Shown here in pieces: positions 61,575 through 64,000 of a DNA stretch of 64,000 nt. Positions within the stretch are counted from its first letter, which is position 1; every line of letters starts with the position of its first letter. The translations under genes and the position numbers were made by a program. Source of the stretch: Anaerophaga thermohalophila DSM 12881 (GTDB lineage Bacteria; Bacteroidota; Bacteroidia; Bacteroidales; Marinilabiliaceae). The notes below the pieces were generated by a model. It was not told where the DNA came from and did no database searches. It saw only the letters and a list, made by a program, of their open reading frames with translations. The DNA lies in assembly GCF_000191885.1 (NCBI RefSeq), contig NZ_AEWI01000001.1, positions 1 to 64,000 of the forward strand, read 5' to 3'.

Positions 61575-63443
61575 ATGGCCAATATACTCTCAGTTGAAAA
61601 CGTCACTCACCATTGGGGCGATATCCGGCTTTTCAACAACCTCTCTTTTGGTCTCGACGAAGGAGACAAAGCCGCCCTGATAGCACGAAACGGAACAGGA
61701 AAAACCACACTTCTCAACATTTTGGCGGGGGTTCTGCCTTCCGACGAAGGACAGGTTACTATAAGAAAAAATATTACACTCGGATACCTTGAACAAACAC
61801 CCCGATTTACCCCCGAACTAACAGTACTGGAAACGCTTTTCACATCCAACAATGAAACGGCCCGTATCGTTAAGCTGTATGAAAAAGCTGTAGCAGAAAA
61901 TGACCACGAATCCCTTCAGGAATTGCTGCCAAAAATGGAGCAACTTAATGCCTGGAGCTATGAAGAAAGAGCCAAACAAATACTCTCACAGTTAAACATC
62001 AACCGGTTTGACCAACCCATGGAGCAACTTTCAGGAGGACAAGTCAAGCGGGTAGCCCTGGCAGCAGTATTGATCACAGACCCCGATTTTCTGATACTTG
62101 ACGAACCTACCAATCACCTTGATCTGGATATGATTGAATGGCTGGAAGATTACCTGAAACGAAGCCGAATGACTTTACTGATGGTTACGCACGACCGCTA
62201 TTTCCTTGACCGTGTGTGCAATGAAATTTTTGAGCTTCAGGACGAAACCCTCTTTCAATACAGAGGTAATTATGCCTACTATCTGGAAAAAAGACAGGAG
62301 CGCATCCATCAGAAAAACCAGGAAGTGGAGAGGGCGCGTAACCTCCTGCGAAAAGAGCAGGAATGGATGAACCGACAGCCTCAGGCAAGAGGAACAAAAG
62401 CAAAATACCGGATTGATGCATTTCATGACCTGAAAAAAACGGCTTCTCAAAACACGCAGGAACAAAGCATGGAAATTAATATTGGTTCGGCACGACTGGG
62501 CCGGAAAGTTCTGAATTTATATCATGTAAGTAAAAGTTTCGACAATCTGAATCTTATTAAAGACTTTTCATACAAGTTTGTAAGAGGAGAAAAAGCCGGT
62601 ATTATCGGGAAAAACGGAACCGGCAAATCAACCTTTCTCAACATCCTGACAGAAGAACTTCAACCCGACAGTGGATATGTTGAACCCGGGGAAACTCTCG
62701 TAACAGGCTATTACCGACAGGAAGGAATGTTGCCGGATGAAAACAAACGGGTTTTGGAAGTGATTACCGATATTGCCGACCAGGTAAAACTCGGGAAAAA
62801 TCATTCGATGTCTGCTTCCCAATTCTTACGCTATTTCATGTTCCCCAACGAGATGCATAATGTAAGGGTACAGAAACTAAGTGGTGGCGAAAAAAAACGT
62901 CTCTATCTGATGACAATATTAATGAAAACCCCTAACTTTCTGATACTCGACGAACCTACCAACGATCTGGACATTCTTACCCTCAATGTTCTGGAAGATT
63001 ACCTTCAGCAATTTGACGGTTGTGTCCTGGTGGTTTCGCACGACCGTTATTTTCTCGATAAGGTAACCGACCATCTGTTCATTTTTGAAAGAAACGGAAC
63101 CATAAAAGACTTTCCGGGAAATTATACAGATTACCGCGAACAGATGGCAAAGGAGCTTCAGGAAAAAAGAGCCGCGACATCAGCCGGGCAACAACCCAAA
63201 AAACAAAAACCTGCCCGTTTGCCAAACAAGAACAAACTTACCTTCAAGGAGAAAAAAGAAATGGAGAGCCTTGAACAACAAATTGAAAAACTGGAAGACC
63301 AAAAAAAAGAACTGGAAGACCAACTCAACTCAGGTTCTTTATCGGGCGATGAACTGCTCAAAACATCTTCAACCCTTGGCAACCTGATGAAAGAATTGGA
63401 TAAGTGTGAAATGCGCTGGTTGGAATTAAGCGAAAAGGAGTAA
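61575..63443 (+). CDS. ABC-F family ATPase (Uup-like)
   Basis: A 622-residue soluble protein with two ABC domains. The first has Walker A ARNGTGKTT, signature LSGGQVKRVALA and Walker B ILDEPTNHLDLDMI. The second has GKNGTGKSTF, LSGGEKKRLYLM and ILDEPTNDLDILTL. A P-site-type linker lies between them, and a Lys/Glu-rich C-terminal coiled coil (about 540-620) is typical of Uup. ABC-F proteins act on ribosomes or in DNA transposon excision control (Uup); no resistance role can be inferred. Promoter box directly upstream. Confidence 0.93.
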   Translation: MANILSVENVTHHWGDIRLFNNLSFGLDEGDKAALIARNGTGKTTLLNILAGVLPSDEGQVTIRKNITLGYLEQTPRFTPELTVLETLFTSNNETARIVKLYEKAVAENDHESLQELLPKMEQLNAWSYEERAKQILSQLNINRFDQPMEQLSGGQVKRVALAAVLITDPDFLILDEPTNHLDLDMIEWLEDYLKRSRMTLLMVTHDRYFLDRVCNEIFELQDETLFQYRGNYAYYLEKRQERIHQKNQEVERARNLLRKEQEWMNRQPQARGTKAKYRIDAFHDLKKTASQNTQEQSMEINIGSARLGRKVLNLYHVSKSFDNLNLIKDFSYKFVRGEKAGIIGKNGTGKSTFLNILTEELQPDSGYVEPGETLVTGYYRQEGMLPDENKRVLEVITDIADQVKLGKNHSMSASQFLRYFMFPNEMHNVRVQKLSGGEKKRLYLMTILMKTPNFLILDEPTNDLDILTLNVLEDYLQQFDGCVLVVSHDRYFLDKVTDHLFIFERNGTIKDFPGNYTDYREQMAKELQEKRAATSAGQQPKKQKPARLPNKNKLTFKEKKEMESLEQQIEKLEDQKKELEDQLNSGSLSGDELLKTSSTLGNLMKELDKCEMRWLELSEKE

Positions 63444-63544
63444 CTAAATATTCTTACCGTCTGTCCCAAAACTTAGAAATTAGCAGTTTTACAAAGCTTT
63501 TTCCATACATCAGTGATATTTTTTGCGATTTTTTCAACAATCTG

Positions 63545-63575
63545 TTGTTTGGAATAGAATAAATATCTATTTTTG
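63545..63575 (+). promoter_or_regulatory. Promoter of the pheA leader
   Basis: TTG (63545-63547), 20 bp, TATTTTTG (63568-63575). This matches the Bacteroidota consensus and places transcription start near 63582, about 25 bp before the leader-peptide ATG. Confidence 0.7.
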
Positions 63576-63606
63576 CCATGGTTAAAAATAAAAAGCAATA
63601 CTTATC

Positions 63607-63696
63607 ATGTTACAGCATGCCTGTTCATATTTCTTTTTCTTCTTTTTTTATTTTTTTGGTTCATCAACCAGAAGGGGCAGGCTCATGCATAAATAA
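63607..63696 (+). CDS. pheA leader peptide, Phe/Tyr-rich
   Basis: A 29-codon ORF with the run YFFFFFFYFF at residues 8-17, followed by GSSTRRGRLMHK and TAA. Ten consecutive aromatic codons match the neighbouring prephenate dehydratase gene's end product. It is a regulatory peptide, not an enzyme. An overlapping frame (63578-63766) is longer but has a weaker Phe bias. Confidence 0.85.
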   Translation: MLQHACSYFFFFFFYFFGSSTRRGRLMHK

Positions 63697-63753
63697 ATCA
63701 AAAATTCGGAGTTACAAAATATGCGTCCCGCCCCTTCAGGCGGGATTTTTTTT
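63671..63753 (+). promoter_or_regulatory. pheA attenuator (antiterminator/terminator)
   Basis: The terminator has stem TCCCGCC/GGCGGGA (63726-63732, 63739-63745), a 6-nt loop and eight T (63746-63753), 10 bp before pheA. GAAGGGGC (63671-63678), which lies within the end of the leader ORF, is exactly complementary to GCCCCTTC (63730-63737) in the terminator, with further flanking pairs. The two pairings exclude each other. A ribosome stalled at the Phe/Tyr codons would leave 63671-63678 free and allow readthrough. Confidence 0.85.
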
Positions 63754-63762
63754 ATCTGTACT

Positions 63763-64000
63763 ATGAGTAAAAACAAAACCATACAAGTCGCCATTCAGGG
63801 TATCCCCGGAGCCAACCATGAAATAGCCGCCCGGGCCTATTTCAAAGACAAAGAAGTGGAAGTTGTACCCTGCCACACTTTTCAGGAAGTTTTTGATGTC
63901 ATGCAGTCAAATCCAAAGATTCTTGGTATCATGGCAATCGAAAACACTCTGGTCGGTAGTTTGCTGCCCAATTACACTATGTTAAGAGAATCGGGCTTTA
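63763..64000 (+). CDS. pheA: Prephenate dehydratase, N-terminal part
   Basis: ATG at 63763; 79 codons visible before the window edge. VAIQGIPGANHEIAARAYF and the ILGIMAIENTLVGSLLPNYT stretch (with the catalytic-region NT motif) identify prephenate dehydratase, which makes phenylpyruvate for phenylalanine synthesis. The rest, including any ACT domain, is outside the window. Controlled by the attenuator described above. Confidence 0.9.
   Translation, partial: MSKNKTIQVAIQGIPGANHEIAARAYFKDKEVEVVPCHTFQEVFDVMQSNPKILGIMAIENTLVGSLLPNYTMLRESGF

Follow-up and report, generated by a model that had tools for sequence, protein, structure and literature searches.

A probable leader-peptide attenuator with mixed Phe and Tyr codons upstream of pheA in Anaerophaga thermohalophila and related Bacteroidia

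The window, by which we mean the complete stretch of 64,000 nucleotides analysed here (Anaerophaga thermohalophila DSM 12881, contig NZ_AEWI01000001.1, positions 1–64,000), ends inside pheA, the gene for prephenate dehydratase, which is preceded by a short open reading frame rich in phenylalanine and tyrosine codons and by a terminator hairpin (Table 1). In locus L046 the genes 3′ of pheA are those for a class I/II aminotransferase, a DAHP synthase fused to chorismate mutase, a prephenate dehydrogenase and an MnmA-like protein, the prephenate dehydrogenase assignment being weak but above the Pfam cut-off (30.4 versus 26.5). An operon with both pheA and a prephenate dehydrogenase gene can serve the synthesis of Phe as well as that of Tyr and thus fits the mixed codons of the leader; the guess of an earlier, sequence-only reading, that the Tyr codons point to shared control of the two pathways, would be in line with this gene content. 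Among the best 80 of 540 named loci, 71 have 3.9 kb or more of downstream DNA, and in 61 of these the genes follow one another as pheA – aminotransferase – DAHP synthase – prephenate dehydrogenase; the others lack the last gene only (7), have pheA alone (2) or have pheA and the DAHP synthase gene (1).

Some further observations were made on the neighbouring genes. In L046, pheA and the aminotransferase gene are separated by a gap of 276 nt (L046:4685–4960), which possibly holds an internal promoter or is left over from an insertion. A span of 5.5 kb includes two MnmA-like genes, one 3′ of the aromatic genes (L046:8020–9093) and above the NCBIfam MnmA cut-off, the other (L046:12268–13518) MnmA-like as judged by eye from its translation. 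Upstream of the leader, at 61575–63443 of the window, there is a gene for an EttA/Uup-like ATPase of the ABC-F family, which scores 434.8 against a cut-off of 380 with the ribosomal protection-like ABC-F model.

Table 1. Features at the 3′ end of the window (positions are those of the window)
Feature	Position	Strand	Basis
Candidate −33 element TTTG	63548–63551	+	sequence; consensus
Candidate −7 element TATTTTTG (TANNTTTG)	63568–63575	+	sequence; conserved box in relatives
Leader ORF, 29 codons + stop	63607–63696	+	sequence and ORF list; counterparts in relatives
Region 1, outer part (would pair with region 2 without a covering ribosome)	63619–63626	+	fold
Control codons, ten consecutive Phe/Tyr (8 Phe, 2 Tyr)	63628–63657	+	ORF translation; shuffle test
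Region 1, inner part (last Phe codons + GGTT)	63653–63661	+	fold
Region 2 (core 63671–63678, antiterminator strand)	63666–63682	+	exact complement of 63730–63737; covariation; permuted partners
Region 3, terminator 5′ arm + loop	63725–63738	+	sequence, terminator scans
Region 4, terminator 3′ arm + U-tract	63739–63753	+	sequence, terminator scans
pheA, prephenate dehydratase, 306 aa from this start	63763–64000 (runs past window end)	+	PF00800, 185.4 bits

The leader reading frame, with its ATG at 63607 and its stop codon at 63694–63696, encodes the peptide MLQHACSYFFFFFFYFFGSSTRRGRLMHK, in which the Phe/Tyr run occupies codons 8–17; the 29-codon leader with ten consecutive Phe/Tyr codons described in the sequence-only reading is thus found at the locus. 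When 63444–63762 was dinucleotide-shuffled 3000 times, the best ATG reading frame contained Phe or Tyr at 7 of 10 consecutive codons, as compared with 10 of 10 in the real leader. It should be noted that translation in Bacteroidota mostly begins without Shine-Dalgarno pairing.

Between the leader and pheA lies a terminator with a stem of 8 pairs and a loop of 6 nt (63725–63746), followed by a T-run at 63746–63753. Terminator scans found two such sites versus a shuffle mean of 0.3, the second being this hairpin as read from the minus strand. The segment 63671–63678 (GAAGGGGC) is over its 8 nt the exact reverse complement of 63730–63737 (GCCCCTTC), which lies across the terminator's 5′ arm and loop, as had been claimed for the antiterminator from the letters of the window. 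Two details of that earlier description had to be corrected: the terminator is present, but its stem begins at 63725 rather than at 63726, and pheA does follow directly downstream, but 9 nt rather than 10 bp after the T-run. Absent from that description was an alternative stem in which 63619–63626 and 63653–63661 (region 1) pair with 63666–63682 (region 2), and which masks the antiterminator strand in the fold of this part of the window. The fold of 63583–63757 has a z-score of −2.86, 1 of 200 shuffles being equally stable, and the duplex of the leader up to the end of the run with region 2 has a z-score of −2.2.

The arrangement is conserved and occurs in many related bacteria from gut and sea. 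The first 79 residues of PheA were matched in 44 of 61 genomes (the own genome and those of the family and the order), and among the 42 of these loci with upstream DNA there are 40 that have a reading frame with at least 7 Phe/Tyr codons out of 10 and two that have one with 6; this set overlaps the set of named genomes, and its leader cut-off is looser (6 of 10). The scan of the named genomes covered the best 80 of 540 loci, hence is biased towards near relatives, and found a leader with at least 7 of 10 in 74 of the 78 loci with upstream DNA. The leader-bearing records include some named Marinilabiliaceae, Bacteroides, Phocaeicola, Prevotella, Paludibacter, Dysgonomonas, Barnesiella and Muribaculaceae. 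Below the cut-off are L077 with 6 of 10 and L120, L138 and L154 without any such leader. The sequence-only reading had named relatives without the aromatic reading frame as evidence that would count against it: among these 78 loci three are of this kind and a fourth has a broken frame, the 74 others having kept the leader. The three are pheA loci of Bacteroidales metagenome-assembled genomes, and a similar short upstream reading frame is common to all of them. The fourth belongs to the sister strain A. thermohalophila Valhall (L003/L077), in which the Phe run lacks one base relative to that of the window and the frame from the conserved ATG consequently shifts and continues through region 2 and the terminator; this could be a sequencing error in the T-run or a genuine change.

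In other families of the class Bacteroidia it is present in 5 of 13 loci (L159, L165–L168) and was not seen in the remaining eight (L073, L157, L158, L160–L164), and none of 29 pheA loci in the phylum outside the class has it, the maximum there being 4 of 10 Phe/Tyr codons. These 13 and 29 loci were picked from the listed matches with strong Pfam scores and are not a random sample.

For comparisons of structure, 136 loci were reduced to 132 with enough upstream DNA, to 117 with an ATG leader of at least 6 of 10, to 114 with a terminator and finally to 103 distinct leaders. Not included in the 103 are four loci with less than 200 nt of upstream DNA, five leaders with a GTG start (L115, L127, L131, L137, L141), ATG being required, three leaders without a scanned terminator (L021, L100, L146), of which L021 and L100 do possess a hairpin, its T-run being short, and 11 duplicates. 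At least two Tyr codons are present in 100 of the 103 distinct leaders. This bears on another explanation of the locus, namely that a U-rich tract in front of an ordinary terminator happens to read as Phe codons. The run is indeed T-rich, and from U-rich DNA some Phe codons are expected by chance; yet none of the 3000 shuffles equalled the real leader, Tyr codons are almost always mixed in, and the leader is kept among loci whose stems differ while it is missing from all 29 loci outside the class. The conservation seen in these sequences already contradicts a chance origin, which we consider practically negligible.

A promoter had also been proposed upstream of the leader. The TTTG and the TATTTTTG listed in Table 1 are 16 nt apart and match what we take to be the Bacteroidota promoter type TTTG/TANNTTTG, so that a candidate of this type is present, but a sigma-70 scan gave nothing beyond chance (2 sites versus 1.5 in shuffles). 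In the relatives, 96 of the 103 distinct leaders have TANNTTTG in the 80 nt preceding their ATG, the rate in shuffles being 0.088; of the 103 boxes, 72 have a TTG about 15–24 nt on their 5′ side, this being a raw count, the shuffles concerning the −7 box alone.

The pairing of region 2 with region 3 (2:3) was compared over the 103 leaders in three ways. First, the duplex of region 2 with the terminator arm of its own locus is more stable than expected with p ≤ 0.05 in 81 and with p ≤ 0.01 in 55 of the 103, p being above 0.05 in 22. Second, the own-partner duplex has a mean of −15.95 kcal/mol versus −11.30 kcal/mol for permuted partners, and in 0 of 2000 permutations was the value as low. Third, covariation was counted, separately in two groups of 43 and 60 rows split by locus number, because a joint alignment of all 103 shifts the two groups by one column in region 2. 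The 43 rows are mostly from the family of the window (L027 is from another), the 60 rows are the remaining leaders, and kinship was ignored in these counts. In the 60 rows, 2:3 is paired in 83.2% of the cells, the best slid version reaching 48.2%, and there are 58 double-change cells versus 25.7 in shuffles; in the 43 rows the corresponding values are 85.5% versus 62.2% and 21 versus 8.0. None of 300 shuffles matched the paired percentages or the double-change counts in either group. Two other measures for the 60 rows were not above shuffles: how many pairs show a double change (reached by 148 of 300 shuffles) and how many extra pair types there are (reached by 87 of 300). A telling example from the 60 rows is the pair of columns 25 and 109, which is GC in 24 rows and AT in 21. 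The terminator stem (3:4) is paired in 94.9% of the cells in the 60 rows and in 99.7% in the 43 rows. The 1:2 duplex is moderately above shuffles, its z-score being below −1.64 in 59 of the 103 distinct leaders. What the sequence-only reading had asked of the relatives, a conserved aromatic reading frame upstream of pheA and compensatory changes in the stems, has thus turned up: reading frame, terminator and complementary segment are kept, and there are compensatory changes in 2:3.

The effect of a ribosome on these pairings was modelled. In transcripts ending before region 4, a ribosome placed on the run gives a 2:3 probability above 0.5 in all 103 leaders, and a ribosome placed on the stop codon gives one below 0.2 in 85 of them (0.00 in the window), 2:3 being incompletely blocked in the other 18. 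This does not mean that the models single out the actual region 2. Indeed, with region 2 shuffled the modelled 2:3 probability still averages 0.77, and the result with placed ribosomes is therefore a matter of consistency rather than of specificity. Without a ribosome the modelled truncated transcript forms 2:3 with a probability of 0.998 in the window and with a median of 0.96 over the 103 leaders; in the window this predicted behaviour does not fit the 1:2 step that would be expected for an untranslated leader. Equilibrium folding of the full-length transcript gave the window the expected terminator probabilities (0.00 with a stalled ribosome, 1.00 with a ribosome at the stop codon), and over the 103 leaders the required switch was seen in only 22 with a mid-run stall or 23 with a stall at the last codon. 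As a test of the switch, equilibrium folding was therefore dropped in favour of the truncated transcripts: once complete, the terminator mostly prevails, a stalled ribosome notwithstanding. The attenuator as modelled thus needs co-transcriptional folding in most relatives; known attenuators likewise depend on the order of synthesis. Because equilibrium and truncated-transcript folding discriminate poorly, the best evidence for the putative switch is that from the duplex, permutation and covariation tests.

Taken together, tandem codons for the products of the operon, an intrinsic terminator as judged by sequence and an antiterminator with compensatory changes are the features of a leader-peptide attenuator, and we propose, with a probability of roughly 0.9, that the element is a ribosome-mediated transcription attenuator which senses charged tRNA-Phe and tRNA-Tyr and controls the operon for the terminal steps of Phe and Tyr synthesis. 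With Phe and Tyr plentiful, the leading ribosome would reach the stop codon at 63694 and cover region 2, regions 3 and 4 would pair, and transcription would end near 63753. With Phe or Tyr in short supply, the ribosome would stall in the run and cover region 1, the core of region 2 (63671–63678) would pair with region 3 before region 4 has been made, and the polymerase would read into pheA. In a leader that is not translated, regions 1 and 2 would pair, which should leave the terminator free to form. What we infer from this arrangement is that the leader is translated, that ribosomes stall in it, that ribosome and polymerase are coupled and that each of the two amino acids evokes a response. 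The mixed run predicts a dual sensor, and the attenuator is apparently bivalent for Phe and Tyr. The ribosome-stalling attenuation suggested by the sequence-only reading is in agreement with this proposal in that all parts are present and the proposed sequence tests came out favourably.

It could be argued that the leader is translated and stalls ribosomes, but acts via mRNA stability, Rho loading or re-initiation at pheA. Re-initiation has been proposed for short leaders, those of Bacteroidetes included (PMC4833913), though at distances that are shorter (peak at 11–14 bp) than the 66 nt found here. Such routes would, moreover, leave unexplained why an intrinsic terminator lies between leader and pheA in 114 of the 117 ATG leaders scanned and why region 2 and the terminator have co-evolved, and we regard them as highly improbable.

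Transcription attenuation by a translated leader has also to be weighed against sensing of the amino acid or the tRNA by a riboswitch, a T-box or an RNA-binding protein, with the reading frame being incidental. Riboswitches, as is generally known, also use alternative hairpins. However, no Rfam family reached its gathering score in any of the ten stretches tested (that of the window, those of six relatives with pheA, and those of his, trp and ilv in the own genome), and the conserved feature is the in-frame Phe/Tyr run, the sequences of the stems being variable. We therefore consider a sensor of this kind highly improbable. The element is a candidate RNA family, not recognised by Rfam in those ten stretches.

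The type of mechanism is known. The enteric pheL-pheA system (Rfam RF01859, Phe_leader) follows the same logic, with a Phe-rich leader, a terminator and an alternative antiterminator in front of pheA. The window scores 22.6 bits with RF01859 versus a gathering score of 55, and its element is outside this enteric family. The two also differ in that here Tyr codons are mixed in and the operon additionally contains prephenate dehydrogenase and DAHP synthase genes. To our knowledge the enteric Phe leader has Phe codons and no Tyr codons.

Within the phylum, Bacteroid-trp (RF01692, entitled “Bacteroidete tryptophan peptide leader RNA” in Rfam) shows that leader-peptide elements of this kind were already known in Bacteroidota (PMC2864571), with Trp instead of Phe/Tyr; the stretch 63400–64000 gave 15 matches at E values of up to 10, none of them to this family. 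The transcriptome of F. psychrophilum hinted at leader-peptide attenuation of amino-acid operons, and in Flavobacteriaceae there are conserved 5′ elements upstream of pheA and hisG, that of pheA being without an Rfam hit; the section that reports them gives for the pheA element no Phe/Tyr leader, codons, stems or distribution beyond Flavobacteriaceae (PMC9723704). Bacteroid-trp and the Flavobacteriaceae pheA element are therefore precedents. In a study of five genomes from 2019, two candidate uORFs with Phe and Tyr codons were described before shikimate metabolism genes; by their names none of these genomes is from Bacteroidota, and the likeness is one of description (PMC6429828). A map of Bacteroides thetaiotaomicron mentions long 5′ UTRs whose short ORFs are suggestive of such leaders (PMC7366714). 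In the literature searched, which included few subscription papers, we found no account of a pheA leader across Bacteroidales. A comparative prediction of amino-acid attenuators by Vitreschak et al. in 2004 reportedly mentions Bacteroidetes/Chlorobi, and Lopatovskaya et al. are said to have made comparative predictions of leader-peptide attenuators in 2010.

The pheA leader does not stand alone in its genome. Upstream of hisG there is a His-rich leader (MNFSVQHYAHHHFYLL; L174, C207), upstream of trpE a Trp-rich leader (MNNTFYNIWWWRHFLLLLTG; L175, C210) and upstream of ilvD a leader rich in Ile, Leu and Val (MNLFLSLILVNIIILVGQPGRSENGV; L178, C189), each followed by a hairpin and a T-run, the three being candidates from the sequence of this one genome. 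By eye, an arm of the ilvD hairpin matches the end of the leader, and the trp leader scores 33.1 with Bacteroid-trp, the gathering score of which is 49. A threonine leader was not seen in the 350 nt upstream of two homoserine dehydrogenase genes of the same genome. Leader-peptide attenuation thus seems, from these sequences, to be used for several operons in A. thermohalophila. It is, as a whole, about an even bet that the Phe/Tyr attenuator is bivalent, has been passed on vertically since early in the ancestry of the class Bacteroidia, controls all of the terminal aromatic pathway as one unit and is part of a set for Phe/Tyr, His, Trp and Ilv.

For 74 of the 78 nearest named loci, Bacteroides, Prevotella and Phocaeicola included and all from the best 80 of 540, the element is the likely regulator of the Phe/Tyr operon. 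If the attenuators work as drawn, ribosome and RNA polymerase should be closely coupled over the short leaders. The mechanism only works if a ribosome follows the polymerase closely, and conserved attenuators therefore make transcription-translation coupling in Bacteroidota testable.

A last observation concerns the choice of Phe codons. In the 103 distinct leaders the longest T-run averages 6.03, as compared with 7.27 after the Phe codons (TTT/TTC) of each leader were permuted, the T-runs of the real leaders being shorter with p = 8e-12 in the Wilcoxon test, in which kinship was ignored. The arrangement of TTT and TTC perhaps reflects selection against slippage of the polymerase or against termination, and if this is true, the codons of the leader show selection against long T-runs.
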